NCBI GenBank assembly: GCA_947243855.1
Contig: CAMXIK010000002.1
Span: 1-64,000, forward strand
Origin: an uncultured Lachnospiraceae bacterium
Lineage (GTDB): Bacteria > Bacillota > Clostridia > Lachnospirales > Lachnospiraceae
Direction of reading: 5' to 3'
DNA: 64,000 nt
Part shown: one piece after another, positions 42,667-62,864 of the stretch
Layout of the letters: every line of letters starts with the position of its first letter
Position numbering within the stretch: the stretch's first letter is position 1
Program-made: the position numbers and the translations under genes
The notes under the pieces: model-generated
What the model saw: only the letters and a program-made list of their open reading frames with translations
What the model was told of the DNA's origin: nothing
Database searches by the model: none

Positions 42667-42689
42667 AAAAGATATGGCAGAGGTATGTG

Positions 42690-45104: not shown

Positions 45105-45127
45105 GATCTGGAAAGAGGAGAAGAAAA

Positions 45128-45472: not shown

Positions 45473-46317
45473 AAAGACGGCGCGGGATCGCAGGCGTTCT
45501 CCTGTCTCTTTGCACGGTTTTCTCCTTGACGGCCTGCGCTGTTGAGGAGGCCGGGGAACAGCGGGAGGAGATTTCGCAGGAGGTTTTTCAGATTACCGGA
45601 CAGGATGAGGAGACAGAGCCGGAGAACCCGTTAACCATCGATCTGGATGCATGGGAAGAGGAATCGGTTCTTCTTACGGAGGGCGGCGACGTCTGGCTTT
45701 CCGGCAGTCTGGAAGGGCAGATCGTTGTCGATGCGGATGAGGACGAGCTGGTGCATTTGTATCTGGCGGGCGTCGGTATTTCTTCCGGCAGGGGGCCGGC
45801 CATTCTAGTGGAGGAGGCTTCCAAAGTCATTGTGACACTTGTGTCGGGAACAGAGAATGTGCTATCGGATTCGCCGGATTATACGGATTATGAAAAGCGG
45901 CAGGCGTGTTTCTACAGCGTGTCTGACCTGACGATCAACGGGGACGGTTCCCTTTGGGTGTTTGGCTATCATGAGGACGGCATTCGGAGCAAGGACAGAA
46001 TCAAGCTCTTGGGCGGCAGCATAGAGGTACAGGCCAAGGGCGACGGGATTAGGGGCAGCGACGGCATCCTGATTCGGTCGGCAGCGTTAGAGATACAGAG
46101 TGAACAAAATGGGCTGCGGACAGCCAATCAAGGCGCGGAAGGAAAAGGCGTCGTGGAAGTGCGGGGCGGCACGCTTTCCCTGATTGCGGGAAAAAACGGC
46201 ATCTATGCGGCCTCGGATTTATTCTTGCGGGACTGTGTGTGCAGTATAAACTCCGTGGAAGAAAAGGTGAGGACGGAGGGCACTGCTTATATTGCGGAGG
46301 GTTGTTTGAGCCAGTGA
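45469..46317 (+). CDS. Carbohydrate-binding lipoprotein, Cthe_2159-like
   Basis: A 282-residue secreted lipoprotein. After a signal peptide the lipobox SLTAC marks the anchor. The rest is a right-handed beta-helix-like repeat with phrases such as LSGSLEGQIVVDADED, GPAILVEEASKVIVTL, DLTINGDGSLWVFG and KGDGIRGSDGILI, which match my memory of the Cthe_2159 carbohydrate-binding family (pectate/polygalacturonate binding). It begins in the stop of the preceding gene, and its own stop overlaps GTG 46314 of the VTC gene. It likely holds a surface polysaccharide near the CotH/VTC machinery. Confidence 0.78.
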   Translation: MKRRRGIAGVLLSLCTVFSLTACAVEEAGEQREEISQEVFQITGQDEETEPENPLTIDLDAWEEESVLLTEGGDVWLSGSLEGQIVVDADEDELVHLYLAGVGISSGRGPAILVEEASKVIVTLVSGTENVLSDSPDYTDYEKRQACFYSVSDLTINGDGSLWVFGYHEDGIRSKDRIKLLGGSIEVQAKGDGIRGSDGILIRSAALEIQSEQNGLRTANQGAEGKGVVEVRGGTLSLIAGKNGIYAASDLFLRDCVCSINSVEEKVRTEGTAYIAEGCLSQ

Positions 46318-47015
46318 CAGAATACAGACATGAATATAAATACCAGATAGACGCCATGCAGAAGGAGGTTTTGAAACTCCGCGCGCAGGGCGTTTTGGAG
46401 CGGGACGTCCATGCGGGGGAGAACGGGGAGTATCTGATCCGCAGTCTCTATTTTGACAGCCCGGAGGACGCCTGTTTTTTTGAAAATGAAGACGGCGTCG
46501 ATCCACGGGAGAAGTACCGCATCCGCATTTATAACTGCGACGGCGCAAGGATTAGTCTGGAATGCAAGGCGAAGACGCGCGGCATGACGAAAAAGACGGC
46601 CTGTCTGATTACCAGAGAGCAGTGCGAACGCTTTATGGAGGGGACGGTTCCGGAGGCGGACGAGGGCTTTTCCAAGGGCCAGAAGCTGTTATTTTACCGG
46701 ATGCGGGAAAGGAATCTGCGGCCGGTGGTGATCGTTCAGTACATGCGGACGCCTTATGTGGGCGCGGCGGGGAATGTGCGGGTTACCTTCGACGATGCGA
46801 TCGCCTCTTCCAATGCGGTCGGCGGTTTTTTGCAGGAGGAGATTCCTTTTCGGAGCGTCCTGCCAGCAGGCGGCAGCATTTTGGAGGTAAAGTGGGACGA
46901 ACTTTTACCGTCCTATGTCAAGGGACAGCTAGAGCTGGATTCTTTGCAGTGGACGGCGTTTTCTAAATATTATCTGTGCCGGAGATATAATTGCTATGGA
47001 GGAGTCAGGATATGA
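46314..47015 (+). CDS. VTC-domain protein (polyphosphate polymerase family)
   Basis: A 233-residue cytoplasmic protein with a VTC-type tunnel fold. Basic strand motifs are visible: YRHEYKYQID, IRSLYFDSP, KYRIRIYNCDG, LECKAKTRGM, VVIVQYMRTPY and ILEVKWDELLP. In yeast the VTC domain makes polyphosphate from ATP; bacterial copies beside CotH and DUF4956 are widespread but their product is not settled. GTG 46314 overlaps the previous stop (GTGA) and starts just before the first conserved strand. The ATG of the DUF4956 gene overlaps its own stop. The unbroken overlaps mark a tightly coupled module. Confidence 0.85.
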   Translation: MTEYRHEYKYQIDAMQKEVLKLRAQGVLERDVHAGENGEYLIRSLYFDSPEDACFFENEDGVDPREKYRIRIYNCDGARISLECKAKTRGMTKKTACLITREQCERFMEGTVPEADEGFSKGQKLLFYRMRERNLRPVVIVQYMRTPYVGAAGNVRVTFDDAIASSNAVGGFLQEEIPFRSVLPAGGSILEVKWDELLPSYVKGQLELDSLQWTAFSKYYLCRRYNCYGGVRI

Positions 47016-47686
47016 GAGTTGCAGAAGTGTTAAAAAAATCCTTCTTGGAAGGGTATGGAGCCGTCAAAATAGATGTTGCGACGGTTATTCTATGCATGGT
47101 TATCACCGTGCTTGTGGCGGCGTATATTTTTATGGTCTACCGCATGATGAACCGGAAGGCGTTCTATAACCGCAATTTTAATCTGTCGCTCATTGCCCTT
47201 GCCGTGATCACGGCGGCGGTGATCCTGACCATCCAATCCAATATTGTGATCTCGCTCGGTATGGTGGGAGCTTTGTCCATTGTAAGGTTCCGCACGGCGG
47301 TGAAGGACCCGATGGATCTGGTGTTTCTCTTCTGGTCGATCAGCGCGGGAATTATCTGTGGCGCGGGTTTTGCAGTTGTGGCGGTAGTTGCATCTGTTGT
47401 CATAACTGTGATAATATTATTGTGTGATAAAATGTCCGTGGGTACGGCGGCGGTGATCCTGCTTGTGAACAGTACGGATTATAAGACGGAGAGCCGGATT
47501 ATGGAAGTCGTGGAGAAGCATTGCGAAAGCAGTAAGGTAAAAGCGAGAAACCTGACCAAGGACAAGCTGAATATGGCAATCGAAGTCAAGACCCGGGAGG
47601 GCGGGAAGCTGGTGGAACAGTTGATGGATCTTTCAAGCGTGACCTCCGCTTCTTTGGTGGATCATGACGGGGAAGTGACGTTTTAA
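47012..47686 (+). CDS. DUF4956 membrane protein
   Basis: A 224-residue protein with three to four membrane helices (first about 25-46) and a cytoplasmic C-terminal domain of about 80 residues. ALSIVRFRTAVKDPMDLVFLFW in the middle is the hallmark of DUF4956 proteins. They are almost always found next to VTC-domain polymerases, as here, where the ATG overlaps the VTC stop. A membrane channel or anchor for the VTC product is a reasonable guess. GGAGG lies 9 bp upstream. Confidence 0.85.
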   Translation: MRVAEVLKKSFLEGYGAVKIDVATVILCMVITVLVAAYIFMVYRMMNRKAFYNRNFNLSLIALAVITAAVILTIQSNIVISLGMVGALSIVRFRTAVKDPMDLVFLFWSISAGIICGAGFAVVAVVASVVITVIILLCDKMSVGTAAVILLVNSTDYKTESRIMEVVEKHCESSKVKARNLTKDKLNMAIEVKTREGGKLVEQLMDLSSVTSASLVDHDGEVTF

Positions 47687-47733
47687 GATAATGAGCGCAA
47701 AAGAAAAATAAACGGGATATGAAGGAGGAGAAC

Positions 47734-48603
47734 ATGAAGGGAATTATACTTGCGGGCGGTGCTGGCACAAGACTTTACCCGCTGACAAAGGCGGTGTCGA
47801 AGCAGATCATGCCGGTATATGACAAACCGATGATTTACTATCCGCTTTCGACGCTGATGCTGGCGGGAATCCGGGAGATTTTGATTATTTCCACACCAAG
47901 GGATCTTCCGGTATTTCAGGAGCTTTTCGGCACCGGCGAACAGCTTGGACTGCGTATGGAATATGCGGTGCAGGAGACGCCGAGGGGGCTTGCGGACGCC
48001 TTTATCATCGGCGCGGATTTTATTGGGACGGATGGCGTGGCGCTGGTGCTTGGCGATAATATTTTCTATGGCCAGAGCTTTTCTAAGGTGCTGCGGGAAG
48101 TGGCCCAGAGAGAAAGCGGGGCGACAATCTTCGGCTATTATGTGCGCGATCCGAGAGAGTACGGCGTAGTGGAGTTTGACGAAAACGGCATGGCCCTATC
48201 CATTGAGGAAAAGCCGGAGCATCCGAAGAGCAACTATGCGGTGCCTGGACTGTATTTCTATGACAATGACGTGGTGGAGATCGCGGCCAATGTGAAACCC
48301 TCCGCAAGGGGAGAGATTGAAATTACCAGTATCAACAACGAATATCTGCGCAGGGGGTCGCTCCGGGTGGAGACCCTTGGACGCGGCTTTGCGTGGCTGG
48401 ATACGGGAAGTCACGATATGCTGCTTGATGCGGCGGACTTTGTGGCGGCGTTCCAGAAACGGCAGGGACTGTATATTTCCTGCATTGAAGAGATTGCTTA
48501 CAAGAGGGGATTTATCACGAAAGAGCAGCTTCTTAAGCTGGCGGAGCCGCTTATGAAGACTGCCTATGGACAGTATATGGTAGAGGTTGCAAATGGACTC
48601 TAA
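47734..48603 (+). CDS. rmlA: Glucose-1-phosphate thymidylyltransferase
   Basis: First enzyme of dTDP-L-rhamnose synthesis; it joins dTTP and glucose-1-phosphate. [18 protein letters not shown] is the nucleotide-binding start, followed by [25 protein letters not shown] and the [19 protein letters not shown] segment. Length 289 residues is standard. GGAGG precedes ATG 47734. It lies between the CotH/VTC module and a GH25 gene, apart from rmlB, and its end overlaps the next gene by 11 bp. The phosphoglucomutase at 59603 should supply its sugar substrate. Confidence 0.95.
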
Positions 48604-49948
48604 AAAGATGAGACGGGCGATGGCTTTTATCATCGTCGTATTTCTGGCGGCGTTCGCCGTCATCGCCGCCACAAATTGGGACAGGGTGAAACAAAAGCTG
48701 GGATATGCGAAGGAGACGCCGACGCAGGACGAGACGCCGGAGGAAGATGTGAAGCCGGAGACGGAAGAGGGACAGATAGGGAGCGATCTGTCTGCTTTTA
48801 TGAGCGATGAGACTTTTTTTGATCCGGAGGTTAAGTTTAAGAGCATCGAATCCTATGCTGGCAGAAATGTTTCTCTGATGATGAGCTCTGTGGCGAAGGA
48901 TCTGCGGATTATGGTGGTGGATAGCGTGGGACGCCTCGTGACGGGGACGGACTTCACTGTGACCATTCAGAATGTGGGCGAGTATACGGATACGGACAGG
49001 GACGGCGTGATCTATGTGGACGGTCTGCGCTCCGGGGAATACAGTGTGTCCCTTAACGAACAGGACGGTTTCCGGGTGCCGAATACGATTACCACCATAC
49101 AGGTGAGGCAGGATATTGAGTACCGTGTGATCGATAATATCGAGTATCTGATGCTGACTGAGGACGATATCGATCCGGAAAAGGAGGATAAGGCGGTCAA
49201 CGGCGCGGAGGAGGAAGCGGACGGTACGGAGAATATGGAGCTGCAGTTTGACAATGGCAGCGCGAAGCTGGGTATCGACGTGTCCAAATGGAACGAGGTA
49301 ATTGACTGGGAGGCAGTGAAGGAGGCTGGCATCGAGTTTGCCATTATCCGCTGCGGATACCGGGGCGCGTCTACCGGAGCCTTGGTCATTGATCCCAGAT
49401 ATGAGGAAAATATCAGGGGCGCTATCGAGGCGGGCATTCCCGTGGGCGTTTACTTCTTCACGCAGGCGCTTGACGAGGTGGAAGCGGTGGAGGAAGCCTC
49501 CATGGTGATCCATCTGATCGAGGATTACGATGTGGATTACCCCGTGTTCCTTGACAGCGAGAGCGCGGGCGGCAAAGGCCGGGCCGACGGGCTTGACAGC
49601 GACCAGCGCACCAGAGCCCATAAGGCGTTTTTGCAGACGATCGAGGCGGCGGGTTATGAGACTGGCGTTTATGCGTCCCGCAACTGGCTGAATGAGAATA
49701 TAGATATGACACGGCTGTCAGATTATAGGGTGTGGCTTGCGGAGTATGCGGATGTGCCAGCCTATGACCAATATTATCACATGTGGCAGTACACCTCCAA
49801 GGGAACGGTGGACGGTATTTCTACCAATGTGGATTTGAATTTGTGTTACATGAATATTGATACTTCTATTAACCACTCCAAAAATGCCGCAGGGTATTCG
49901 GGCGTGGTGAACGGGGATACAGGAAACGTTCCAAGACAAGGAGATTAG
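48593..49948 (+). CDS. Membrane-anchored GH25 lysozyme
   Basis: A 451-residue muramidase, paralogue of the large GH25 protein at 38426. It has a short basic start, a membrane helix (about 8-26), a Glu/Asp/Thr-rich spacer, a SpaA-like beta domain (about 80-195) and a GH25 domain (about 222-420). Catalytic acids appear in [10 protein letters not shown] and FLDSES; WQYTSKG closes the barrel. It lacks the acidic tail, Ig domains and repeat linker of the paralogue, but the GH25 domains are near-parallel over their whole length. It starts at ATG 48593 inside the end of rmlA with AGAGG 6 bp upstream. The tail after the barrel (about 30 residues) is Asn/Gly-rich. Confidence 0.87.
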
Positions 49949-49952
49949 TATT

Positions 49953-50513
49953 ATGGGAAAGATAACGGTGGAGACATGCGAAATTGAGGGCCTTAAGGTG
50001 ATTACCCCGGCAGTGTTTGGAGATAACAGAGGTTATTTTATGGAGACCTACCATTATGAGGACTATAAGGCAGCGGGGATCGATCAGGTTTTTGTGCAGG
50101 ACAACCAGTCCTCCTCCATAAAGGGCGTGCTTCGGGGGCTGCACTTCCAGATTCAGTACCCGCAGGACAAGCTGGTACGGGTGCTTGCAGGCGAGGTATT
50201 CGACGTGGCGGTGGATTTGAGAGCCGGCTCGGCGACTTACGGACAGTGGTATGGGGTGCTTCTTTCAGCGGAGAATAAAAAGCAGTTCTTTATCCCTAAG
50301 AATTTTGCGCACGGGTTTCTTGTGCTGTCGGATTATGCCGAGTTTGCTTACAAGTGTTCGGACTTTTATCATCCCAATGACGAGGGGGGCATTCTTTGGA
50401 GCGATCCGGAAATAGGGGTCAAATGGCCGATTCCCGAGGGGATGGAGCTTGTCATGTCTGATAAGGACCCAAAATGGGAGGGACTTTCCGCGTTTACAAA
50501 GAAATATCGTTAA
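49953..50513 (+). CDS. rmlC: dTDP-4-dehydrorhamnose 3,5-epimerase
   Basis: Third enzyme of the dTDP-L-rhamnose pathway. GVLRGLHFQ carries the catalytic histidine, VRVLAGEVFDVAVDLR the cupin core, and FIPKNFAHGFLVLS the second half. The 186-residue length is normal. It starts at ATG 49953, 4 bp after the GH25 stop, with AGGAG upstream. With rmlA and rmlB it indicates rhamnose in the exported polymer. The reductase RmlD needed for the last step is not in the window. Confidence 0.95.
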   Translation: MGKITVETCEIEGLKVITPAVFGDNRGYFMETYHYEDYKAAGIDQVFVQDNQSSSIKGVLRGLHFQIQYPQDKLVRVLAGEVFDVAVDLRAGSATYGQWYGVLLSAENKKQFFIPKNFAHGFLVLSDYAEFAYKCSDFYHPNDEGGILWSDPEIGVKWPIPEGMELVMSDKDPKWEGLSAFTKKYR

Positions 50514-50535: not shown

Positions 50536-51570
50536 ATGAGTGAAGAGAAGATAGAAAAGAAAAACATAAAAGAGAAAAAAAGTGTGTCAAAGTCCGCGGC
50601 AATCGTTGTATTCTGGGGGCTTGGCCTGCTTTTGGCGTCTGTGCTTGTATTGCACCACAATCCGCTGGCGGATCAGGTGACGGAGCAGATGAAAAAGGTC
50701 AGCGGCTGCGTGCTGATCGCCTTTACGTGTATTATCTTTACGATCTACTACGAGAGGATTGTGACGATTCCCGTGGAGTTGTTCCAGAGCAGGATGTTGA
50801 TTTGGAAGCTCGCGAAAAATGATTTTAAGAAACGGTACGCCGGCTCCTATCTGGGAATTGTGTGGGCGCTTGCCCAGCCCGTTGTGACGGTGTTAATGTA
50901 CTGGATTGTGTTTGACAAAGTCTTCGACGCAAGGGTACAGTTTGTGGCGGCGGATGGTGTGGAACCGCCCTATGTGCTGTATCTGATGGCCGGTTTGGTG
51001 CCGTGGTTTTATTTTTCCGAGGCGATTTCCCAAGGAACAATGGCGCTTGTGGAGTATACTTACCTTGTGAAAAAGGTTGTGTTTAATATCAGTATCCTGC
51101 CGATTATTAAGGTGATTGCGGCCACCTTTATCCATATCTTTTTTGTGGGTATTTTGCTGATTGTGGCGGTATGCTACGGCTATACGCCCACGGTCTATAC
51201 GATACAGATTTTATATTACAGCATCTGTCTGTTTTTGTTCGTGTTGGCGTTGAGTTATCTGACAAGCGCGCTGGTGGTATTTATCAGGGATCTCCAGCAG
51301 GTCATCACCATTGCGTTACAGATCGGCATGTGGGCGACGCCGATTATGTGGAATATCAAGATGCTGCCAAGCGATAATATGAAGACGCTTTTTAAGCTCA
51401 ATCCGCTGGTCTACATTGTCAACGGTTACCGGAGCGCGATTTTTGAGGAGGTGTGGTTCTGGGAACATTTCTACTCCTCGACCTATTTTTGGATTTTTAC
51501 GATCAGTATGTTTTGTATCGGGACGCTGGTATTCAGACGTTTGCGTAGTCATTTCGCAGATGTATTATAA
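50536..51570 (+). CDS. Polysaccharide ABC transporter permease (Wzm/TagG type)
   Basis: Membrane subunit of a polymer exporter. The 344-residue protein has a charged N-terminal tail, two helices before residue 90, then ANDFKKRYAGSYLGIVWALAQPVV, the typical start of the Wzm/TagG core, and four more helices with LVYFIRDLQQ-like VVFIRDLQQV. It lies 23 bp after rmlC and is followed by its ATPase. The two extra N-terminal helices resemble the O-antigen and teichoic acid exporter layout. Start ATG 50536 is chosen for the GCAGGATG context and because a longer frame overlaps rmlC. Confidence 0.88.
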   Translation: MSEEKIEKKNIKEKKSVSKSAAIVVFWGLGLLLASVLVLHHNPLADQVTEQMKKVSGCVLIAFTCIIFTIYYERIVTIPVELFQSRMLIWKLAKNDFKKRYAGSYLGIVWALAQPVVTVLMYWIVFDKVFDARVQFVAADGVEPPYVLYLMAGLVPWFYFSEAISQGTMALVEYTYLVKKVVFNISILPIIKVIAATFIHIFFVGILLIVAVCYGYTPTVYTIQILYYSICLFLFVLALSYLTSALVVFIRDLQQVITIALQIGMWATPIMWNIKMLPSDNMKTLFKLNPLVYIVNGYRSAIFEEVWFWEHFYSSTYFWIFTISMFCIGTLVFRRLRSHFADVL

Positions 51571-51580
51571 GGAACTAACT

Positions 51581-52891
51581 ATGGACAATATCGCGATTAA
51601 GGTCACAGACCTAGAAAAAGTGTATAAACTCTACGACAAGCCCTCGGACCGCTTGAAGGAGGCGCTGCGGATTGGACGCGGAAAGCACCATACGGAGCAC
51701 CGCGCTCTGAAAGGGGTCAATTTATCGATCAGGCAGGGAGAGTGCGTGGGAATCATTGGCACCAACGGTTCCGGTAAATCGACAATTCTAAAAATAATAA
51801 CGGGCGTTCTTTCTCCGACTTCCGGGGAAGTGGAGGTCAACGGGCGTATCTCCGCGCTGTTGGAGCTTGGCGCGGGATTCAATATGGAGTATAACGGCAT
51901 TGAGAATATCTATCTGAACGGAACCATGATCGGCTTTTCCAAAAAGGAAATTGACCGGAAGATGGATGAAATACTGGCGTTTGCGGATATCGGGGATTAT
52001 GTGTACCAGCCTGCAAAAACCTATTCCAGCGGTATGTTTGTGCGGCTGGCTTTTGCCGTAGCGATCAATATCGACCCAGAAATCCTCATTGTGGACGAGG
52101 CGCTGTCTGTGGGGGACGTTTTTTTTCAGGCCAAGTGCTACCATAAGTTTGAAGAGTTTAAGGAGATGGGCAAGACCATTGTCTTCGTCAGCCATGATCT
52201 GAGCAGCATCAGCAAGTATTGCGACCGCGTTGTGCTGTTAAATCAGGGCGTTAAGCTGGGCGAGGGCAGCGCAAAGCAGATGATAGACACTTACAAGCAG
52301 GTGCTTGTGGGGCAGTACGCCGCGCCGGAGGCGGAGGGGGAGCGTCTGGTGGACGACGAGCAGCTTCGCCAGATGGCTGCAAAAGGCGTGGACGGCAGCA
52401 AGCTGGAAGCGCAGAAAGCCGAAAAACAGTCCGGCATGGCGGAAAATCCGGAGCTTTTGGAATATGGTTCTAAAAAAGCGCAGATTACGGAATACTATAT
52501 CACGGACGGCAAAGGCATGAGAACTTCCACCATCCTCAAAGGGAGCGCCTTTACCATCCATATGCGCGTGGAGGCGGCGCAGCGGATTAACGCGCCTATT
52601 TTTGCCTTTACCATCAAAAACGTGCGGGGTACGGAGATCACGGGCACGAACACCATGATTGAGAAGGCTTTTTTGGAGTCTGTGGAAGCTGGGGAGACAA
52701 AGGATATCGCCTTTACGCAGGAAATGAATCTACAGGGCGGAGATTATCTGCTCTCGCTGGGCGTTACCGGCTATGAGGGCGATGATTTTACAGTGTATCA
52801 CAGACTGTACGACGTATTGAACGTGACAGTGATTTCTGATAAGGACACGGTGGGATTCTATGATATGAATTCAAAGGTGACAGTGAAATAG
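51581..52891 (+). CDS. Polysaccharide ABC transporter ATPase with C-terminal cargo-binding domain (Wzt/TagH type)
   Basis: A 436-residue ATPase. IIGTNGSGKST (58-68) is Walker A, YSSGMFVRLAFAV the signature, ILIVDEALSVGD Walker B. After a linker (about 245-310) comes a C-terminal beta-sandwich with FTIHMRVEAAQ, FAFTIKNVRG and GDYLLSLGVTGYE, matching the Wzt C-terminal domain. In E. coli O8/O9a that domain recognises the modified chain end before export. The gene follows the permease by 10 bp and precedes the methyltransferase-kinase, so the same logic may apply here. Longer upstream frames overlap the permease and were rejected. Confidence 0.9.
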   Translation: MDNIAIKVTDLEKVYKLYDKPSDRLKEALRIGRGKHHTEHRALKGVNLSIRQGECVGIIGTNGSGKSTILKIITGVLSPTSGEVEVNGRISALLELGAGFNMEYNGIENIYLNGTMIGFSKKEIDRKMDEILAFADIGDYVYQPAKTYSSGMFVRLAFAVAINIDPEILIVDEALSVGDVFFQAKCYHKFEEFKEMGKTIVFVSHDLSSISKYCDRVVLLNQGVKLGEGSAKQMIDTYKQVLVGQYAAPEAEGERLVDDEQLRQMAAKGVDGSKLEAQKAEKQSGMAENPELLEYGSKKAQITEYYITDGKGMRTSTILKGSAFTIHMRVEAAQRINAPIFAFTIKNVRGTEITGTNTMIEKAFLESVEAGETKDIAFTQEMNLQGGDYLLSLGVTGYEGDDFTVYHRLYDVLNVTVISDKDTVGFYDMNSKVTVK

Positions 52892-52922
52892 AGAATATGA
52901 CAAGCATGGAAGGAAATAAAGC

Positions 52923-55067
52923 ATGTCGGCAGATAAAATAGAAGAGATTGGAAAGATAAAACTGGATTTAAGCCACTATCCGGGAGAGGATTACTACTGT
53001 GACGGAGCGGTGGAAGACGAGCTTTTAGAGATTGCCAAAAATTATGCCGCAGTGGAATATCCGCGTATCATAGAGGAGAGGAAGAGTTGGGAAATTCTGT
53101 ACCATCTGTCCCCTTTGCGGGAGAACGTTGTGGAGTGGCTTCCGATCAACTCGTCCATGAAGGTTTTGGAGGTGGGGTCCGGCTGCGGCGCGATTACGGG
53201 AGCGCTCTCAAGGAGGGCCGGGGAAGTGACCTGCGTGGAGCTTTCCAAAAAACGAAGCATGATCAATGCCTACCGCCATATGGAGGCGGAGAATGTGACA
53301 ATCCATGTAGGTAATTTTCAGGATGTGGAGCCTGATTTGCCCAAAGACTATGATTATATCTGCCTGATCGGCGTTTTTGAGTATGCGCAGGCCTATATCG
53401 GCTCTGAGACGCCTTATGACGATTTTCTGCGCATTATCAAAAAACATTTGAAAACAGGCGGTCATATCGCCATAGCCATTGAGAATAAATTTGGATTAAA
53501 GTATTGGGCTGGCTGCAGGGAAGACCATCTTGGAGTCTACTATGCGGGGATTGAGGACTATCCGGAGGGAGGCGTGGTGCGCACGTTCACGAAGGAGGGA
53601 CTGCTCTCGATTGCGAAGCGCTGCGGTTTTCGGGAGGCGCAGATGTATTATCCCTATCCGGACTATAAGTTTATGACCACCCTATATTCCGACCGAAGGC
53701 TCCCACAGCAGGGCGAATTATCTAATAACACGCGTAATTTTGATCGGGACCGCCTGCAGTTGTTCGATGAGAAACGGGTCTTTGATACGATGATCAAGGA
53801 GGGACAGTTCCCTCTCTTTTCCAATTCCTATATGCTGCTTCTGGGGCCGTCCTTGTCGGAAGAATATGTAAGATATTCTAACGATAGAAAAGAAGAATTT
53901 CAGATCAAGACCTTGCAGAAGGGAACCGGATTTGGCAAAATTATAGAGAAACACCCGTTATGCAAAGCGGCTGAAACCCACATAGAATCGACGGCCAAGG
54001 CCTATGAAAAGCTGTCCGAACGGTATCAGGGGAGCCGGATTGCCATCAATGAAAGCAGGCTCGAGCGGACGGCGGAGGGGACACCTTATATCACGATTAA
54101 ATTTTTGGAAGGAAGGACGCTGGAGGAGATCCTTGACGAACGGCTTGCCCAAAATGATCTGGAGGGCTTTCATAAACTCTTCGACGAGTATCTGAAAAGA
54201 ATTGCATGGGGAGAGGAAAAAGCGGTTGCCGATTATGACCTAATTTTTGGAAATGTGTTGATTCCACAAGGGGATAACAACCGAAATTTAAAAGGCGCCA
54301 AAAGCGCAGAGAACGATATCGATAGTTATTTAAACGAGGAAATCTGGCATGTGATCGACTGCGAATGGACGTTTGACAGAACCATTGAGACAAAGGAACT
54401 TGCCTTCCGCGCCGTCTACTGTTACCTGCTGGAAGACGAGAAAAGGAATGCGCTAAATCCAGATTTGATTTTTGACAAGCTGGAGATCGGGCCGGCGGAA
54501 GCCGAACAGTACCGCAGGGAAGAGATGAAGTTTCAGAAATATGTCACGGGAAAAAGACTTTCCATGGCGGAGATCAGGGAGGCCATCGGACAGCCGGTCT
54601 ATACGCTGACGGATTTCTGCGAAGGGTTAAGAAAGAAAGCGTCCGACGACCGCATACAGATCTATGAAGATACGGGGAAAGGATTTTTGGAGGAGCAGTC
54701 CTTCTTTCCGGAGGAGGACGGGGAGGAGCTTCGGCGCGGCGACGAAGGGCTGGTGGAACTTTCCGTCCAGATTCCCAAGGGACGGAGCGCGGTACGGATC
54801 GATCCCGGAAGTCATGCCTGTGTGATTTACGTCAAGAGAATCGGTTGGAACGGCGTGGAGATTCCGCTGAAAGGAAAACAGGTGCAGATGAACGGTTTTC
54901 GGATTGGGGAGGATATCTATGGGTTTCCCACGGAGGACCCAAATATCACCCTGTCCCTCTGGGGGCTGCCGTCTGAGGAAGAAAACCACTTGGAGGCGGT
55001 CATGGAGGTGACAAGGATGTCAGTAGAGAGTGTGAAACGTTTGCAGAAAAGGGGATTGTTTAACTGA
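52923..55067 (+). CDS. Methyltransferase-kinase fusion, WbdD-like candidate chain terminator
   Basis: A 714-residue cytoplasmic protein with two parts. The N-terminal part is a SAM methyltransferase: VLEVGSGCGAITGAL (81-95) binds SAM and YDYICLIGVFEYA follows. The middle part (about 330-510) looks like an aminoglycoside-phosphotransferase or LPS-kinase fold: IKFLEGRTLEEIL as hinge, DYDLIFGNVLI (437-447) as catalytic loop and WHVIDCEWTF (475-484) as metal-binding loop. The first Asp/Asn pair and the last Asp are kept, but the usual His before the catalytic Asp is Tyr. The C-terminal part (about 570-714) is beta-rich. The order, length and position after Wzt match WbdD of E. coli, which ends chains by phosphorylation and methylation. 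This remains an inference. Confidence 0.78.
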   Translation: MSADKIEEIGKIKLDLSHYPGEDYYCDGAVEDELLEIAKNYAAVEYPRIIEERKSWEILYHLSPLRENVVEWLPINSSMKVLEVGSGCGAITGALSRRAGEVTCVELSKKRSMINAYRHMEAENVTIHVGNFQDVEPDLPKDYDYICLIGVFEYAQAYIGSETPYDDFLRIIKKHLKTGGHIAIAIENKFGLKYWAGCREDHLGVYYAGIEDYPEGGVVRTFTKEGLLSIAKRCGFREAQMYYPYPDYKFMTTLYSDRRLPQQGELSNNTRNFDRDRLQLFDEKRVFDTMIKEGQFPLFSNSYMLLLGPSLSEEYVRYSNDRKEEFQIKTLQKGTGFGKIIEKHPLCKAAETHIESTAKAYEKLSERYQGSRIAINESRLERTAEGTPYITIKFLEGRTLEEILDERLAQNDLEGFHKLFDEYLKRIAWGEEKAVADYDLIFGNVLIPQGDNNRNLKGAKSAENDIDSYLNEEIWHVIDCEWTFDRTIETKELAFRAVYCYLLEDEKRNALNPDLIFDKLEIGPAEAEQYRREEMKFQKYVTGKRLSMAEIREAIGQPVYTLTDFCEGLRKKASDDRIQIYEDTGKGFLEEQSFFPEEDGEELRRGDEGLVELSVQIPKGRSAVRIDPGSHACVIYVKRIGWNGVEIPLKGKQVQMNGFRIGEDIYGFPTEDPNITLSLWGLPSEEENHLEAVMEVTRMSVESVKRLQKRGLFN

Positions 55068-57454
55068 TGGGCAGACAGAAAAACCGCCAAGACTGGGCAG
55101 CCTACTATAAGGCAGCCTATGAGGAAGAGCGAAAAAAGAATACGCAGATGGCCGGACGAATTGCGGATGCGGAGCGGCGTCAGGCGGATCTTTCAGACAA
55201 TCTGAACCGCATTTGCGCGAATCCATTGTACCGTGCGGCGTCCAAAACGACGGCGCCGGCGAGGAGACTGCTCCGCCGTGTGAAGGGCGGGGCGGGATCG
55301 GATGAGAGAGCTGTTAAGGCGGAGGCGGCGCAGGAGAGACTGCTCGCTTATGAAAAGACGCTGAAGGAGCAGGCGAATCCGTATCAACAGTGGATTGCTT
55401 TCTGCGAGAATGCGGACACGGAGAATAAGAAAACGGGTGTTATACCGAAGGCGGAGCCGATTTTGGTGCAGGGATTTCGTGAGATTGCGGTGCCGGGTAC
55501 GGACGTTCGTATTTTGACCTACGGAGAGGGTCTGCTTGCAGACCATGTGTTTTCGGCGGTAAAAACGTTTTTTGAGAAAAACAGCGAGTGCCTTATCGCC
55601 TATGCGGACGAGGATTTTTATTTGGAGAGTGTCATGAAGCGGGCAGAGCCGTGGTTTAAACCGGACTACTCGCCCGATACGCTGCTTGCGTTTCAGTATT
55701 GGGGACATTTTCTGGCGGTCAGGGATCATGTGCTTGACAGCATGAGCTACCGGATGGTGAGCATGAAAGACCCGGATGCAGGGTTTTATGAGTTGTGCCT
55801 GCGTCTAGAGGAGAAGATTGTTGAGCTGGTCGGAGGAGATTTTAAAAAAAGAATGGCGGCGATCGGCCATATGGAGGAGATTCTCTACCATAACAAAACT
55901 GGTAAATCGGCAGAGGAGCTTCGCCATGACCTTGCCGAGGGAAAATTGCTGATCGGCGCTTCCTCAAAGTTTGTGACCTTGAAACAGGACACGCTGATGC
56001 GGCGGGGCATACAGGGACAGCTTCTACAGGGAGCGGACCCGGATATCTATCATCTGCTTTACGATACGTCTGTTTCGGGCAGGGAGCGCTGTACCCGTTC
56101 CGGCAGTGAGAATACGGCGATTGCCCCCCATCGGGTGGTATCTGTGATCATTCTCTCAAAGGATCATCCGGAGGTGTTGGAAAAGTGCCTGCATTCTTTT
56201 CGGGAGAAAACCCAGTACCGATACTATGAGTGGATTGTGGTGGATAACGGGAGCAGTGAGGAAAACCGGGAAAAGATGGAGGCTTTACAGGCTTCCTACG
56301 ACTTTACTTATCTTTATGAGCCGATGCCGTTTAATTTCTCTAAAATGTGCAATCTGGGGGAGAAAAAGGCGAGAGGCGATCTGATTCTGTTGATGAACGA
56401 CGATATTGAGATCATCGAGGAAAGCTGGCTGGGCCGTATGGCGGGACAGGCCCTTTTGCCCCATGTGGGCGCAGTGGGCGCGAAGTTATGGTATGCGGGT
56501 ACGGAGAACATCCAGCATGCAGGTATTACCAATATGAAGATCGGCCCGTCCCACAAGCTGGTTACCTTTCCCGACGAGGAGGATTATTATTTCGGCAGAA
56601 ACCGTGTCACCTACAATGTGGCGGGCGTGACGGGCGCCTGTCTGATGGTTGCGAGGAAAAAATACGAGGAAATCGGGGGATTGGACGAGGAGCTTCCGGT
56701 ATCTTATAACGATGTGGATTTTTGTTTCCGCCTTTTGGAGGCGGGCTATGTCAATGTGCAGAGAAACGATGCGATTCTCTGGCATCATGAATCTTTGAGC
56801 AGGGGGCTTGACGAACAGAGCGGGGAAAAGTGGGACAGACTGCTCTCCGAGAAGGAAGCGCTTTATCAAAGGCATCCCGCGTATCTTGGCAAAGACCCAT
56901 TTTACCACAAGAACCTGATTGACAACGCGTCAGATTACACCTGTAATTATAAATTTCCTTATGAAGATCAGCTCTGTACGCAGGAGGTGCGGTTTGTGAC
57001 GAAAAAGACCCTGCGCAGGCTTGTGAAGAAGGCGGGGCGGGGCGGTCTTTGTCTGACGGTGGACCGGGCCGAGATGCAGCATAAAATACACAGGGACGAG
57101 CCGGATATCGTCTGGATTATGGGATGGAGCTATCTGCCCGGAGCGGACAACGCGGCTTTTGAACGAAAGGTGATTTTACAGCGTACCGACGGCGGAGGCT
57201 ATCTGGCGGTTCCCACAGACTGGCACCGGGCGGATGTGGAAGAGATTCTGCCGGACGAGAAGCATATCGGTCTGGCTGGATTTGTCCTGCGGGTAAGGCG
57301 GGAGGAGCTTTCACCGGGAGAATACCGGGTGGGTATGCTCGCCGTCGGAAAGGCGCAGGACGGGTCGGAGCCGGAGGTGACGCTTGTGGACTGGTCTGAG
57401 CGCAGGATAACCATAGAACAGAGGGACGCTGGCAGCTCTGACACGGAGGAGTAG
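55067..57454 (+). CDS. Multidomain GT2 glycosyltransferase with degenerate N-terminal GT domain
   Basis: A 795-residue protein. A coiled N-terminus (about 1-65) precedes a remnant GT2 domain (about 140-290) that keeps YADEDFY and PWFKPDYSPDTLLAFQYWGH but has lost the usual VSIxxPxYN start and the DHDD-type motif. A complete GT2 domain follows (about 355-610), with SVIILSKDHPEVL, VVDNGSSEEN, LLMNDDIEI and GVTGACLMV. A beta-rich C-terminal domain ends it. The active domain resembles rhamnosyltransferases of polysaccharide clusters. TGATG joins it to the methyltransferase-kinase gene, so they are coupled. Confidence 0.85.
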   Translation: MGRQKNRQDWAAYYKAAYEEERKKNTQMAGRIADAERRQADLSDNLNRICANPLYRAASKTTAPARRLLRRVKGGAGSDERAVKAEAAQERLLAYEKTLKEQANPYQQWIAFCENADTENKKTGVIPKAEPILVQGFREIAVPGTDVRILTYGEGLLADHVFSAVKTFFEKNSECLIAYADEDFYLESVMKRAEPWFKPDYSPDTLLAFQYWGHFLAVRDHVLDSMSYRMVSMKDPDAGFYELCLRLEEKIVELVGGDFKKRMAAIGHMEEILYHNKTGKSAEELRHDLAEGKLLIGASSKFVTLKQDTLMRRGIQGQLLQGADPDIYHLLYDTSVSGRERCTRSGSENTAIAPHRVVSVIILSKDHPEVLEKCLHSFREKTQYRYYEWIVVDNGSSEENREKMEALQASYDFTYLYEPMPFNFSKMCNLGEKKARGDLILLMNDDIEIIEESWLGRMAGQALLPHVGAVGAKLWYAGTENIQHAGITNMKIGPSHKLVTFPDEEDYYFGRNRVTYNVAGVTGACLMVARKKYEEIGGLDEELPVSYNDVDFCFRLLEAGYVNVQRNDAILWHHESLSRGLDEQSGEKWDRLLSEKEALYQRHPAYLGKDPFYHKNLIDNASDYTCNYKFPYEDQLCTQEVRFVTKKTLRRLVKKAGRGGLCLTVDRAEMQHKIHRDEPDIVWIMGWSYLPGADNAAFERKVILQRTDGGGYLAVPTDWHRADVEEILPDEKHIGLAGFVLRVRREELSPGEYRVGMLAVGKAQDGSEPEVTLVDWSERRITIEQRDAGSSDTEE

Positions 57455-57472: not shown

Positions 57473-59491
57473 ATGGAACGAGGGGATATGACAGAGGCGG
57501 AAGCGCTCCGCTATTATAAGGAATCCTATAAGAGAGAAAGACGCCGCGGCCAGAGGCTTCGCCGGAAGCTGGCGGAAGCGGAAAAAAAGAAAGAGATGAC
57601 GCAGAGGAAGCTCGATCGCATCAAGGGAAGTTTTTTGTGGCGGGCCTCTAAACCATTGCGTATGCTGTTTCATAAGCTTGTCCGCGCTAAGGAGAGGCTT
57701 GGTTATTACGGGAGTCTCAAAGGAATTGCGAGGAAGATCAATGCCAAGATGATAGAACGGCAGGCGAGGGCGCAGCATGGGACGGCCAGCTTTCCGGAGA
57801 TTGAGGAGGCGGCAAGACAGCGGCTTCACAAGTTTGACAGGGATGTGAAGTTCAGTATTCTGATGCCTCTTTACAATACGCCGGAACATTTTTTGCGGCA
57901 GGCGATAGAGTCCGTGATCGATCAGACCTGTGAGAATTGGGAATTATGTCTGGCGGACGGGTCGGATGAGGAGCATGCTTACGTGGAGCAGGTCTGCCGG
58001 GAATATATGGACAAGGATAAACAGTATCTGCGTCCCAGAAGCAGTCTCTACTGTCGGATTCTGTATAAGAAGCTGCCGAAAAACGAGGGGATATCGGGCA
58101 ACACGAACGCCTGTCTTTCTATGGCTTCGGGCAATTATATCGCTCTTTTTGACCATGACGACGTGCTTCATCCCAGCGTCCTCTTTGAATATATGAAGGC
58201 GATTTGCGAGAAGGGCGCGGATTATATTTACTGTGACGAGGCTACCTTTAAGGGAAGCGGAACCATAGACGATATGATTACCCTGCATTTTAAACCGGAC
58301 TATGCGCCGGACAATCTGCGGGCGAATAATTATATCTGTCATTTCAGCGCCTTTGCCAGAAAGCTTTTGGACGGCACGCAGTTGTTCCGGTCGGAGTTTG
58401 ACGGAAGTCAGGATCACGATATGATCCTGCGTCTCACCTCCCGCGCGAAGTGTGTGGTGCATGTGCCGAAGCTTCTCTATTATTGGAGATCCCATGAGGG
58501 GAGCGTGGCTTCGGATATCAATGCGAAAAGCTATGCCATCGAGGCGGCCAAGGGGGCGGTGGCGGCTCATCTTGCGTCGCAGGGATTCCAAAATTTTGAA
58601 ATCACCTCCACCAAGGCGTTTGAGACGATTTTCCAGATCAAATATGAGATTCTGGGGAAACCCAAAGTGTCCATTATCATTCCCAACAAGGATCATTTGG
58701 AGGATCTGACCCGCTGTATCTCTTCCATCGTGGAGCGCAGCACTTACGATAATTACGAGATTATTGTGATCGAGAACAACAGCGGCAGGGACGAAGTGTT
58801 TGCCTATTACAAGCAGATACAGGAAAATCCGGCGATTCGGGTGGCGACCTACGAGGGTGAATTTAACTATTCCAGAATCAATAATCTCGGCGTGGCGCAG
58901 GCGGAGGGCGAGTATGTGCTTCTCTTGAACAACGATACCAGCGTGATCACGCCGGATTGGATCGAGGAGCTTTTGATGTATGCCCAGCGAAGCGACGTGG
59001 GCGCGGTGGGCGCAAAACTTTACTACGAGGACAGGACGATACAGCACGCGGGCGTGGTGCTGGGGCTTGGGCCGCATAGGACGGCGGGACACAGCCATTA
59101 CCGCGTAAGCAGCCGAAATCTGGGGTATATGGGACGGCTCTGCTATGCCCAGAATGTGATGGCGGTGACAGGAGCTTGTCTGATGATGAGAAAGGCTTTG
59201 TACGAAGAGCTGGGCGGGCTGGATGAGAAGTTCGCCGTGGCCTTGAACGACGTAGATTTGTGTATCCGCGCATGGAAGACGGGGCGCGTAAACGTATTTA
59301 CCCCGTTTGCGGAGCTTTACCATTATGAATCCACTTCCCGCGGCACGGATCTGGCGGGGGCCAATGCGGAACGCTATGACAAGGAGTCGGCGCTGTTCCG
59401 CGAGCAGTGGAAGGAGCTTCTCGAGCAGGGCGATCCCTATTACAATCCGAATTTTTCGCTGGACCGGAGCGATTTTGCGCTAAAAATATAA
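57473..59491 (+). CDS. Two-domain GT2 glycosyltransferase
   Basis: A 672-residue enzyme with a charged coiled N-terminus (about 10-50) and two complete GT2 domains. The first (about 126-360) has FSILMPLYNTPEHF, ALFDHDDVLHP and YYWRSHEGS. The second (about 397-640) has SIIIPNKDHLEDL, VIENNSGRDE, LLLNNDTSV and VTGACLMM. Such tandem enzymes add two sugars in alternation or in sequence, for example in rhamnan and mycobacterial-type backbones. It likely builds the repeat of the exported polymer together with its neighbours at 55067, 61389 and 62865. It starts 18 bp after the previous stop with GAGAGG upstream. Confidence 0.88.
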   Translation: MERGDMTEAEALRYYKESYKRERRRGQRLRRKLAEAEKKKEMTQRKLDRIKGSFLWRASKPLRMLFHKLVRAKERLGYYGSLKGIARKINAKMIERQARAQHGTASFPEIEEAARQRLHKFDRDVKFSILMPLYNTPEHFLRQAIESVIDQTCENWELCLADGSDEEHAYVEQVCREYMDKDKQYLRPRSSLYCRILYKKLPKNEGISGNTNACLSMASGNYIALFDHDDVLHPSVLFEYMKAICEKGADYIYCDEATFKGSGTIDDMITLHFKPDYAPDNLRANNYICHFSAFARKLLDGTQLFRSEFDGSQDHDMILRLTSRAKCVVHVPKLLYYWRSHEGSVASDINAKSYAIEAAKGAVAAHLASQGFQNFEITSTKAFETIFQIKYEILGKPKVSIIIPNKDHLEDLTRCISSIVERSTYDNYEIIVIENNSGRDEVFAYYKQIQENPAIRVATYEGEFNYSRINNLGVAQAEGEYVLLLNNDTSVITPDWIEELLMYAQRSDVGAVGAKLYYEDRTIQHAGVVLGLGPHRTAGHSHYRVSSRNLGYMGRLCYAQNVMAVTGACLMMRKALYEELGGLDEKFAVALNDVDLCIRAWKTGRVNVFTPFAELYHYESTSRGTDLAGANAERYDKESALFREQWKELLEQGDPYYNPNFSLDRSDFALKI

Positions 59492-59602: not shown

Positions 59603-61324
59603 ATGGGCTACAAAGAGCAGTTTACGTTTTGGCTGGAGGATTCCTACTTTGACGAGGCGACCAAGCAGGAGCTTCTGGCGATCAGGAACGACGAGAAGGA
59701 GATCGAGGACCGCTTTTATAAGGAACTTGCTTTCGGTACGGGCGGCCTTCGCGGCGTGATCGGCGCGGGCACGAACCGTATGAACATTTATACGGTCCGC
59801 AAGGCGACGCAGGGTCTTGCCAACTACATAAAGAAACAGGGCGGCGAAAAGAAGGGCGTGGCGATTGCCTACGATTCCAGAAGAATGTCTCCCGAATTTG
59901 CAGACGAGGCGGCTCTGTGTCTTGCGGCTAACGGCATTAAGGCGTATGTGTTCGACGCGCTTCGTCCTACGCCAGAGTTATCCTTTGCGCTGCGTACGCT
60001 GGGCTGTATTTCGGGTATCGTGATTACGGCCAGCCACAATCCGCCGGAGTACAACGGCTACAAGTGCTATTGGGAGGACGGCGCGCAGGTGACGGCCCCC
60101 AAGGATAAAGAGATTATCACGGAAGTAAACAATGTGACCGATTACCATACCGTGAAGACCATGGATAAGGAGGAGGCTAAGAAAGCCGGACTCTATGAGG
60201 TGATCGGCAAAGAGATCGACGATAAGTACATGGAGGAGCTGAAAAAGCAGATCATCCATCCCGACGTGATCAAGGAAATGGCGGAGGACATGAAGATTGT
60301 GTACTCGCCCTTCAACGGTACGGGTAATGTGCCGGTAAGACGGATTCTCTCAGAGCTGGGCTTTAAGAATGTCTATGTAGTGCCCGAGCAGGAGATGCCC
60401 GACCCCAACTTTACCACACTGGAATATCCCAATCCGGAAGACCCCAAGGCATTTACCCTTGCCCTCAAGCTGGCGAAAGAGAAAAATGCGGATATCGTGC
60501 TGGCGACAGACCCCGACGCGGACAGACTCGGTATCTATGCGTTAGACACCAAGTCCGGCGAGTATGTGCCTTTCACGGGTAACATGTCCGGCATGCTGAT
60601 TGCGGAATATATTTTGAGAGAGCGGACAGTTACGGGTAAGATGCCTGAAAATCCTGCTCTCGTGACCACCATTGTGACCACCAATATGGCGCGGGCGATC
60701 TCGGAGGATTATAAGGTAAGATTTATCGAGGTGCTGACCGGCTTTAAGTTCATCGGCGAGCAGATTAAGCTCTTTGAGCAGAGCGGCTCCAACAATTACG
60801 TGTTCGGTTTAGAGGAGAGCTACGGCTGTCTGGCCGGAACCCATGCGAGGGATAAGGACGCGATTGTGGCGGTAATGTGCCTGTGCGAGATGGCGGCATG
60901 GTGTAAGAAGAACGGCAGGACCGTCTGGGATCAGATGATCAACCTTTATGAGAAATATGGTTACTATAAAGAGAGCCAGTATTCCATTACCAAGAAGGGC
61001 GTGGAGGGCGCGAAGGAGATCGAGGAGCTGATGAACAAGCTGCGCCAGAATCCGCCGAAGAGCTTCGGCGAACTTACGGTGAAGGAGTTTAGGGATTACG
61101 ACACGGGAAAGACCCTGAATCTGGAGACGGGCGAAACGGGCGAGACAGGGCTGCCGAAGTCAAACGTGCTTTACTTCGATCTGACCAACGATTCTTGGTG
61201 CTGCGCAAGACCTTCCGGTACGGAGCCGAAGATCAAGTTTTATATGGGCGTGAAGGGCACAAGCCTTGAGGATGCGCAGGAGAAGCTGGATCGGTTGACG
61301 GAGGAAGTAAAAAAGAATATTTAA
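59603..61324 (+). CDS. pgcA: Phosphoglucomutase / phospho-sugar mutase
   Basis: Interconverts glucose-6-phosphate and glucose-1-phosphate. ITASHNPPEYNGYK carries the phosphoserine (Ser144), ATDPDADRLG the magnesium site, GLEESYGCL the sugar-binding loop and RPSGTEPKIKFY the phosphate-binding end. The 573-residue length and N-terminal ELAFGTGGLRG fit the Firmicute PgcA group. AGGAGG lies upstream of ATG 59603. It has its own promoter and a terminator, yet sits among rhamnan-type GT genes, which fits supply of glucose-1-phosphate to RmlA. A mannose substrate is also possible, as some members use both. Confidence 0.93.
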   Translation: MGYKEQFTFWLEDSYFDEATKQELLAIRNDEKEIEDRFYKELAFGTGGLRGVIGAGTNRMNIYTVRKATQGLANYIKKQGGEKKGVAIAYDSRRMSPEFADEAALCLAANGIKAYVFDALRPTPELSFALRTLGCISGIVITASHNPPEYNGYKCYWEDGAQVTAPKDKEIITEVNNVTDYHTVKTMDKEEAKKAGLYEVIGKEIDDKYMEELKKQIIHPDVIKEMAEDMKIVYSPFNGTGNVPVRRILSELGFKNVYVVPEQEMPDPNFTTLEYPNPEDPKAFTLALKLAKEKNADIVLATDPDADRLGIYALDTKSGEYVPFTGNMSGMLIAEYILRERTVTGKMPENPALVTTIVTTNMARAISEDYKVRFIEVLTGFKFIGEQIKLFEQSGSNNYVFGLEESYGCLAGTHARDKDAIVAVMCLCEMAAWCKKNGRTVWDQMINLYEKYGYYKESQYSITKKGVEGAKEIEELMNKLRQNPPKSFGELTVKEFRDYDTGKTLNLETGETGETGLPKSNVLYFDLTNDSWCCARPSGTEPKIKFYMGVKGTSLEDAQEKLDRLTEEVKKNI

Positions 61325-62810: not shown

Positions 62811-62864
62811 GAAGACGGAATGGAAAAGCGCGGTGCACAAAGGCTGGGAAACGGAGGAGCAGGC

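Follow-up and report, generated by a model that had tools for sequence, protein, structure and literature searches.

A methyltransferase-kinase encoded beside Wzm and Wzt in a Lachnospiraceae rhamnose operon: a candidate system for capped-end export of a wall polymer

In Gram-positive bacteria, the control of wall polysaccharide length and of the timing of export is little resolved, and the logic by which a chain-end cap licenses export has so far been established mainly in Gram-negative bacteria. The ORF6 protein of Klebsiella pneumoniae O7 (ORF6-O7) attaches methyl-phosphate to O3 of the terminal rhamnose in vitro, with full phosphorylation and partial methylation, and its orthologues have been named from alpha- and gammaproteobacteria and cyanobacteria (PMC11231755). 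In WbdD, His132, His133 and Arg203 methylate the phosphate, and the paper describing this also refers to similar systems that serve O-linked glycans in Gram-positives (PMC3482155). The WsaE system of Geobacillus stearothermophilus makes a methyl-capped S-layer rhamnan with Wzm/Wzt, and the methyltransferase domain of WsaE 2-O-methylates the terminal rhamnose (PMC2943079). The main text of a 2016 review of rhamnose wall polysaccharides contains none of the terms "terminat", "non-reducing" and "Wzt". An earlier note on the DNA studied here knew of no such system in Clostridia; our searches of open-licence papers agree, finding no terminator or licensed-export system of this kind there, although the Geobacillus rhamnan is a Gram-positive precedent.

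The window is a stretch of 64,000 nucleotides from an uncultured Lachnospiraceae bacterium, and all coordinates below refer to its + strand. In it, wzm, wzt and the gene for a 714-residue methyltransferase-kinase (working name MTK) are found where the earlier note had placed them, adjoining rhamnose and glycosyltransferase genes in an operon-like order. The rml genes match their families above cut-off: rmlB, dTDP-glucose 4,6-dehydratase (41584–42666; TIGR01181, 490.8 bits), rmlA, glucose-1-phosphate thymidylyltransferase (47719–48603; TIGR01207, 485.6 bits) and rmlC, dTDP-4-dehydrorhamnose 3,5-epimerase (49953–50513; TIGR01221, 246.3 bits); rmlD lies outside the window in the same genome (G000:C5:136481-137308, 313.8 bits). 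The polysaccharide ABC exporter permease gene wzm (50536–51570; ABC2_membrane, E 2.8e-18) is followed by wzt (51581–52891), encoding an ATPase with a C-terminal cap-reading-type domain, and by the MTK gene (52923–55067), in which profiles, motifs and a structural model delimit a methyltransferase (residues ~8–300), a kinase-like domain (~302–570) and a beta domain (~579–698). The MTK stop overlaps by one base the start of GT_a, a GT2-domain glycosyltransferase (55067–57454; Glycos_transf_2). Downstream lie GT_b, a tandem GT2-GT2 protein and probable polymerase (57473–59491), a phosphohexomutase-family gene (59603–61324; TIGR03990, 176.5 bits, under the cut-off of 439), the GT2 glycosyltransferases GT_c (61389–62810) and GT_d (62820–63860), both assigned by domain match, and the 5' part of a gene for a WbaP-like sugar-phosphate transferase (Bac_transf; 63933–64000) that continues to C2:65435. 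An LCP (LytR_cpsA_psr) gene follows it beyond the window, at C2:65611-66792. The predicted product of the operon is a rhamnose-containing wall glycopolymer.

Residues 66–237 of MTK match methyltransferase families in a profile search, and phosphoethanolamine methyltransferases are among the top fold matches to this domain. Its SAM motif, LEVGSGCG, is intact, as are Y25, Y60, E106 and Y154; Asp replaces E106 in 17 of 28 relatives. For the kinase domain of the window MTK a Pfam search gave no match. The AlphaFold model (mean pLDDT 85.2) has the bilobal strand and helix order of a kinase at ~302–570, and WbdD (4ax8) is the second Foldseek match (E 1.7e-9, 532 columns). The motifs begin where it had read them, DYDLIFGN at residue 437 and IDCEW at 478. 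K343, D439, N444, D479, E481 and W482 are invariant in all 27 kinase domains compared, and the first four also in 28 of 28 sequences of a second set. The full profile reaches GCN2 at E 0.0014 and CDKL5 at E 0.0032, the kinase-only profile gives E 0.04, and the Pkinase and Choline_kinase families match 3 and 1 (E 0.068) of the 27 domains, respectively; sequence-level support for the kinase assignment is thus weak. A motif scan missed 3 of 76 kinase-profile matches, namely the variants FDAEW (L103) and FDYEW (L104) and a partial match (L136). L132 and L133 carry the motif letters yet give no kinase-profile match, and Citrobacter L142 has neither the profile match nor the IDxEW pattern. The segment after the kinase, residues 579–698, is mostly beta in the model, and its profile also matches split kinase proteins and some other proteins.

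MTK was compared with ORF6-O7 indirectly, by way of published residue numbers and of L141, a protein encoded on a Pseudomonas asturiensis plasmid (tblastn E 3e-30). This protein, encoded downstream of wzm-wzt, has 1457 residues in methyltransferase, kinase-like and GT2-GT2 parts, and carries Y28, Y66, G91, G93, E112 and Y158 at the exact published ORF6-O7 numbers, with D443 for D441. By motif position, the counterparts in the window MTK are Y25, Y60, G85, G87, E106, Y154 and D439, and the codon for Asp439 in DYDLIFGN, the positional counterpart of ORF6-O7 Asp441, lies at 54237–54239. A search with the GT_b family profile hits L141 in its C-terminal half with 617 bits, over positions 118–662 of 665, and L133 with 611 bits. 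Judged by architecture and residue pattern, the closest characterised relative of MTK is ORF6-O7 rather than WbdD, the kin named in the earlier note: IDCEW stands at the DFG position, and a WbdD-type coiled coil was not seen. In a crude heptad scan, which omits windows containing Gly or Pro, the tail of MTK from the window gave nothing heptad-like; the scan marked the tails of L092, L098, L105, L107, L133, L141 and L142, and only L142 beats the best of 30 shuffles. The scan did not support the idea that GT_a and GT_b had taken over the coiled coil at their N-termini, and the idea was rejected.

A homologous MTK frame with largely conserved gene order occurs in 62 named loci, which is more than chance. 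All 62 have a Wzt_C-type domain (phmmer), 60 have wzm and 58 an rml gene upstream of MTK, and in 59 the nearest labelled upstream gene is wzt; of 61 gaps between wzt and mtk, 44 are no longer than 100 bases and 59 no longer than 700. An apparent one-frame wzt-mtk fusion at L067 was rejected as an artefact of undetermined bases (N) at the stop in the junction; including this locus would raise the wzt-nearest count to 60 of 62. Among 398 sampled genomes of the phylum, 14 match the MTK profile (some in the methyltransferase part only), 38 match Wzt_C and 10 match both (Fisher p 1.5e-8, uncorrected for kinship). In Enterococcus and others, methyltransferase and kinase are separate neighbouring genes, and such neighbours stand in the wzt-bearing loci L098, L099, L105, L128 and L129, which suggests that the two domains work jointly. 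A tree of 38 methyltransferase domains, with several long-branch rows, does not fix the sequence of splits and fusions. For some MTK relatives (L103, L104, L106, L130, L131, L136 and L137), the stretch of DNA covered contains no Wzt; coupling to export is therefore not universal, and a universal pairing of MTK with the exporter was dropped. Two gammaproteobacterial MTK genes gave no DNA match in a search of E. coli genomes.

The window Wzt combines ABC_tran with Wzt_C (E 1e-41; 142.7 bits, cut-off 30.4), confirming by profile search the C-terminal domain noticed earlier, and is the only Wzt_C match in its genome. It matches WzmWzt structures and 2r5o in the PDB. Alone, the C-terminal domain is closest to 2r5o (E 2e-8), which we take to be that of the O9a Wzt, and matches the Aquifex Wzt weakly (E 0.013). 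Aquifex aeolicus WzmWzt and the window Wzt belong to one transporter family, with a C-terminal domain of the kind that binds the chain cap; the Aquifex protein reads a 3-O-methyl cap via Trp362, which stacks the methyl group (PMC9445017), whereas the window Wzt has Arg at the aligned position. This Arg409, in HRLYD, is numbered from codon 51578 (Arg408 from the first ATG at 51581) and encoded at 52802–52804; the Wzt model, with a mean pLDDT of 70.4, is weak and served solely to place it within a predicted strand, 403–419. Arg occupies the Trp362-aligned position in 63 of 63 family Wzt sequences and likewise in 2r5o, the closest solved domain; the Wzt of L132 has His. In the 398-genome sample, Arg is found in 7 of 8 Wzt_C loci that bear MTK but in only 2 of the 34 whose stretch has no MTK (p 1e-5), the 34 coming from 29 genomes, some with two, and excluding L177 (G342; Arg), whose MTK lies on a different contig. 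Both Arg-bearing loci without MTK have a sulfotransferase-like neighbour. An alternative comparison, 13 versus 33, puts L177 in the MTK group and omits L178, which has no long Wzt and whose Tyr was read by eye; L155 was placed in the alignment from a poor match (25 bits). The MTK-linked Wzt proteins are kin, which confounds the Arg contrast. The Arg signature speaks for a cap that carries phosphate and that Wzt reads.

It is thus probable that MTK caps the chain end with a methylated phosphate and that the Wzt C-terminal domain licenses export of a rhamnose wall polymer. Linkage, homology and the Wzt signature lend good support, short of proof, to the capped-end export logic put forward in the earlier note. 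The WbaP-like enzyme would start the polymer on a lipid carrier, and the GT2 enzymes, with GT_b as the main polymerase, would lengthen it at the non-reducing end. MTK would then stop growth: its kinase domain would phosphorylate the sugar at the chain end, and the phosphate would in turn be methylated by the methyltransferase domain. The anionic cap would be bound by the Wzt C-terminal domain, with Arg409 as a likely contact, so that Wzm/Wzt would export capped chains only, and the LCP enzyme would attach these to peptidoglycan. The operon would thereby hold a complete candidate answer in a gut Lachnospiraceae, with phosphate-type cap, writer, reader and wall ligase together.

MTK might instead decorate without terminating, adding a phosphate-based substituent (phosphoethanolamine- or choline-like, for example) within or beside the chain while Wzt reads another feature. 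The phosphoethanolamine methyltransferase folds would fit, as would the DxEW motif, which resembles that of choline kinases, the one Choline_kinase match and the relatives without a nearby Wzt. The close wzt linkage, the residues common to MTK and the O7 terminator type and the correlation between MTK and the residue at the Wzt cap position all argue against decoration, which we consider quite unlikely. We think it quite improbable, too, that the methyltransferase alone is active, as in WsaE, with the kinase domain structural or acting elsewhere. Geobacillus does offer a Gram-positive rhamnan with such a methyl cap (PMC2943079), and the MTK kinase lacks clear sequence matches, but its K343, D439, N444 and D479 are invariant in both sets and the methyl-stacking position of Wzt holds Arg, not Trp or Tyr. 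In L097, moreover, the degenerate domain is the methyltransferase, with both motif glycines replaced and a loop deleted, while the kinase motifs are intact and the Wzt is Arg-type. That locus would fit a phosphate-only cap, in which phosphorylation by the kinase domain is central and methylation can be dispensed with in at least part of the family, as would the full phosphorylation and partial methylation by the O7 enzyme in vitro (PMC11231755). L097 is, however, a single locus from a metagenome assembly, and the SAM motif and Y25, Y60, E106 and Y154 of the window MTK are intact; we consider this reading very unlikely.

The one-residue Wzt signature would make cap chemistry predictable and testable. 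We suggest tentatively, at somewhat less than an even chance, that the Trp362-aligned residue is a cap code, with Arg for anionic caps (phosphate or sulfate) and Trp or Tyr for methyl. Bacillota would then use several cap chemistries, with kinase-methyltransferase (fused or split), sulfotransferase-like or methyltransferase-only terminators near wzt, and phosphate-capped wall polymers with licensed export would form a widespread Gram-positive class recognisable from sequence.

Among described systems, WbdD (E. coli O9a and K. pneumoniae O3) resembles MTK in placing the methyltransferase before the kinase, in its similar length and in adjoining a Wzt with a cap-reading domain. It differs in its eukaryotic-type kinase with DFG, where IDCEW of MTK keeps D479 and lacks FG, and in its C-terminal coiled coil, where MTK ends in the beta domain. 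At the loop corresponding to the phosphate-methylation site of WbdD, placed by motif, MTK has GVFEY. The Geobacillus WsaE system is likewise Gram-positive, with a rhamnan, rml genes and a Wzt predicted to bind the end modification for export; its cap is methyl only, its methyltransferase is fused to glycosyltransferases, the passages describing it mention no kinase, and its product goes to the S-layer protein (PMC2943079). ORF6-O7 shares with MTK the order of methyltransferase, kinase without a clear sequence family and beta (Ig-like/CBM) domain and, by residue pattern, the six SAM-site residues and the catalytic Asp, and its locus likewise has wzm, wzt and rml genes. The coiled coil of ORF6-O7-type terminators was not seen in the window MTK by the crude scan, the GT2-GT2 polymerase half of ORF6-O7 has its predicted counterpart in the separate neighbouring gene GT_b, and the window differs further in its Gram-positive setting and its LCP gene.

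The 714-residue methyltransferase (MT) and kinase-like protein MTK (window 52923-55067) is encoded in a 3.58 Mb genome of 81 contigs, with the window at C2:1-64000, whose nearest named relatives are Lachnospiraceae. The gene row reads rmlB, an inserted set, rmlA, a GH25 gene, rmlC, wzm, wzt, mtk, the glycosyltransferase (GT) gene GT_a, GT_b, a phosphohexomutase-family gene, GT_c and GT_d. Junctions are mostly short: wzm and wzt are 10 bases apart, measured from the wzt ATG, wzt and mtk 31 bases apart, and mtk and gtA overlap by 1 base. Beyond GT_d lie genes for a WbaP-like sugar-phosphate transferase (C2:63933-65435) and an LCP-family protein (C2:65611-66792), and rmlD (313.8 bits) is located elsewhere in the genome. 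This parts list is a complete candidate path to a rhamnose-containing wall polymer, covering start, extension, export and, because of the known role of LCP enzymes in the attachment of wall polymers, attachment. The GH25 muramidase-family gene (window 48587-49948), a wall-lytic gene within a wall-polymer operon, overlaps rmlA and adjoins rmlC; a close homologue occurs in 49 of 62 related loci. Between rmlB and rmlA (window 42603-47686) are genes for a CotH-kinase protein with an LTD domain, a VTC-domain protein and a membrane protein, also seen in some relatives; in others rmlB directly adjoins rmlA, so these genes are regarded as inserted.

A species-genome scan confirmed 63 of 69 candidate stretches, giving 62 loci, whose genes were labelled by their similarity to proteins encoded in the window. 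All 62 have a Wzt_C-type domain (lowest score 158 bits), wzm lies upstream of mtk in 60 and an rml gene in 58, and wzt is the nearest labelled upstream gene in 59. No more than 100 bases separate wzt from mtk in 44 of 61 loci, and no more than 700 in 59. In L081 and L083 a GT protein separates the two genes; L067, also taken for an exception, is an artefact of N bases. Among 98 related genomes, 67 have a match at E 0.001, some to the MT part only. In an even sample of 398 genomes of the phylum, the MTK profile (E 1e-10) is found in 14, in some of them through the MT part alone, Wzt_C in 38 and both in 10 (Fisher p 1.5e-8, ignoring kinship).

The N-terminal part of MTK is a class I methyltransferase, and the kinase-like part has no Pfam match. 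The earlier note had proposed a kinase-like fold after the methyltransferase, and an AlphaFold model (28 sequences, mean pLDDT 85.2, pTM 0.73) agrees with it. Strands are predicted before the DxxxxN loop at 313-318, 328-335, 338-345, 373-375, 378-382 and 388-393, with a helix at 348-367 after the strand 338-345 and helices at 400-409 and 413-427 just before the loop, which in the model is the kinase order. Foldseek against the PDB gives WbdD (4ax8), the E. coli O8/O9a terminator, as second-best match (E 1.7e-9, 532 columns); all 49 others among the matches listed (best 50 of 1998) are methyltransferases. The TM scores (0.19/0.28) and rmsd (15.3) of the alignment to 4ax8 imply that the domains of MTK and WbdD would be placed differently. 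K343, D439, N444, D479, E481 and W482 do not vary across 27 kinase domains, a set that takes in split genes and copies without Wzt nearby. After the kinase-like part the model has a mostly beta domain at 579-698. This domain is also matched, at 25 to 39 bits, in other polysaccharide-cluster proteins (L128:9556-11967, L129:1909-4020, L156:2435-4078 and L165:3722-5164), which would be in keeping with a mobile module.

In L098 and L099, from two Enterococcus strains, and in L105, L128, L129, L130 and L131, MT and kinase are encoded by separate genes next to each other. The distance to the upstream wzt is about 4 kb in L128; L130 and L131 have no Wzt within the stretch examined. L139 has in a row wzt, MT and a kinase-like protein with a coil-like tail, the kinase being identified by eye. 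Two domains joined in one lineage and encoded side by side in another are, as a rule, partners, and MT and kinase are probably such a pair. The MT part also occurs within proteins of 1260 (L132), 1555 (L133), at least 599 (L134, contig end) and 1376 residues (L135), and these loci all have wzm and wzt. MTK relatives in L103, L104, L106, L131 and L136 are without Wzt in the stretch examined, some of them among GT genes. Large MT-domain relatives also stand beside GT genes at L102:286-2535 (the window's own genome, C24), where the frame ends by eye in a cytidylyltransferase-like part, and at L138:6933-9194, by eye near flagellin-like genes; this would fit flagellin modification.

Profile search identifies a Wzt_C domain in the ATPase, where the same note had proposed a cap-reading domain of the Wzt type. 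Taken alone, this C-terminal domain has as its best PDB match 2r5o (E 2e-8), with Aquifex Wzt a weak match (E 0.013). We take 2r5o to be the corresponding domain from E. coli O9a, where the cap that is read is a methyl-phosphate. Arg409 (counted from codon 51578, within HRLYD) aligns with Arg in 2r5o and with Trp in Aquifex Wzt, at chain position 363 by count, taken as Trp362 of PMC9445017; according to that paper, the methyl cap is held by stacking against Trp362, and a Leu in place of this Trp leaves essentially no binding. Arg409 is present in 63/63 family sequences, and Arg holds this position in L141, L142, L105, L107, L128, L129, L133, L134 and L139; L132 has His. Among Wzt_C loci of the 398-genome sample, Arg is found in 7 of 8 with MTK in the stretch (the window, L127, L128, L129, L132, L133, L134 and L139) versus 2 of 34 without (p 1e-5). 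In the latter two (L149:6160-9684 and L150:4554-5732), the gene that follows encodes a sulfotransferase-like protein, whose Sulfotransfer_3 match of 25 bits falls just short of the cut-off of 27; a sulfate-capped, ABC-exported glycan is possible in these loci. The following gene was examined in ten of the 34 MTK-free loci (in L158 the second gene): it encodes a methyltransferase domain in the Trp loci L144, L146, L158 and L159 and in the Tyr loci L148 and L151, but none in the Trp locus L145 or the Tyr locus L147.

The Arg pattern is not a matter of overall similarity, since the Trp loci L146, L158 and L159 score higher with the family Wzt profile than the MTK-linked L133, L134 and L132. Arg409 ranks second among the 153 columns of the domain, behind Tyr411 of the same HRLYD motif (13/13 vs 0/33); the Arg409 column is therefore not unique, and kinship stays a caveat. 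We infer that Arg409 would contact an anionic cap. In the MTK at L097:2288-4309 the SAM motif is degenerate and a loop is deleted, yet the kinase and beta domain are intact and the L097 Wzt is of the Arg type, which suggests that phosphate is the essential element of the cap; a phosphate-only cap is possible in L097.

In the mechanism we propose, GT2 enzymes would extend a lipid-linked chain until the kinase phosphorylates the terminal sugar and so blocks extension. Methylation of the terminal phosphate would follow, Wzt would bind the cap, Wzm/Wzt would export the chain and LCP would attach it. Of this mechanism, the analysis shows only which genes are present, how they are linked and which residues are conserved. 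Such cap-then-export logic is established for O antigens. As far as the open-licence literature shows, the new elements are a terminator of the kinase-methyltransferase type in operons for Gram-positive wall polymers, the forms of it that are split into two genes, and the Wzt Arg signature; the Arg in the O9a domain may have been described before. The initial statement that no such system is described in Clostridia agrees with that literature; methyl capping in a Gram-positive is already known from the Geobacillus S-layer rhamnan (PMC2943079).

In the available text of PMC11231755, the K. pneumoniae O7 terminator ORF6-O7 comprises MT, an unannotated AmiN-like kinase, an Ig-like/CBM domain, a coiled coil, GT2 and GT2. 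In vitro it phosphorylates the terminal rhamnose at O3, the phosphate being partly methylated, and D441A abolishes the reaction; the orthologues listed there are from alpha- and gammaproteobacteria and cyanobacteria (PMC11231755). Unlike ORF6-O7 as described in that text, the window MTK has no heptad-like tail by a descriptive scan, which found such tails in L092, L098, L105, L107, L133, L141 and L142, only L142 exceeding the best of 30 shuffles. If a ruler is absent in the window MTK, chain length must be set in another way. A tblastn search of 72,556 plasmids with MTK returned two records, one from Pseudomonas asturiensis (L141) and one from Citrobacter braakii (L142); in each, genes for an ABC permease and ATPase lie immediately upstream. 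The MT residues are conserved in L142, but it has no kinase-profile match and no IDxEW was found. L141 has Y28, Y66, G91, G93, E112 and Y158, the same numbers as published for ORF6-O7, and D443 for D441. The counterparts in the window MTK are Y25, Y60, G85, G87, E106, Y154 and D439; among 28 relatives, Y60 and D439 are kept in 28 and Y25, G85, G87 and Y154 each in 27, and position 106 is Glu in 10, Asp in 17 and Thr in 1. The GT2-GT2 half of L141 is matched by the profile of GT_b, the window's tandem GT2-GT2 protein and probable polymerase (617 bits). The WbdD-like reading of the earlier note stands for the joining of MT and kinase, as in the Foldseek match to 4ax8, and gives way for the nearest kin: compared through L141 and the published residue numbers, MTK would be closer to terminators of the O7 type than to WbdD.
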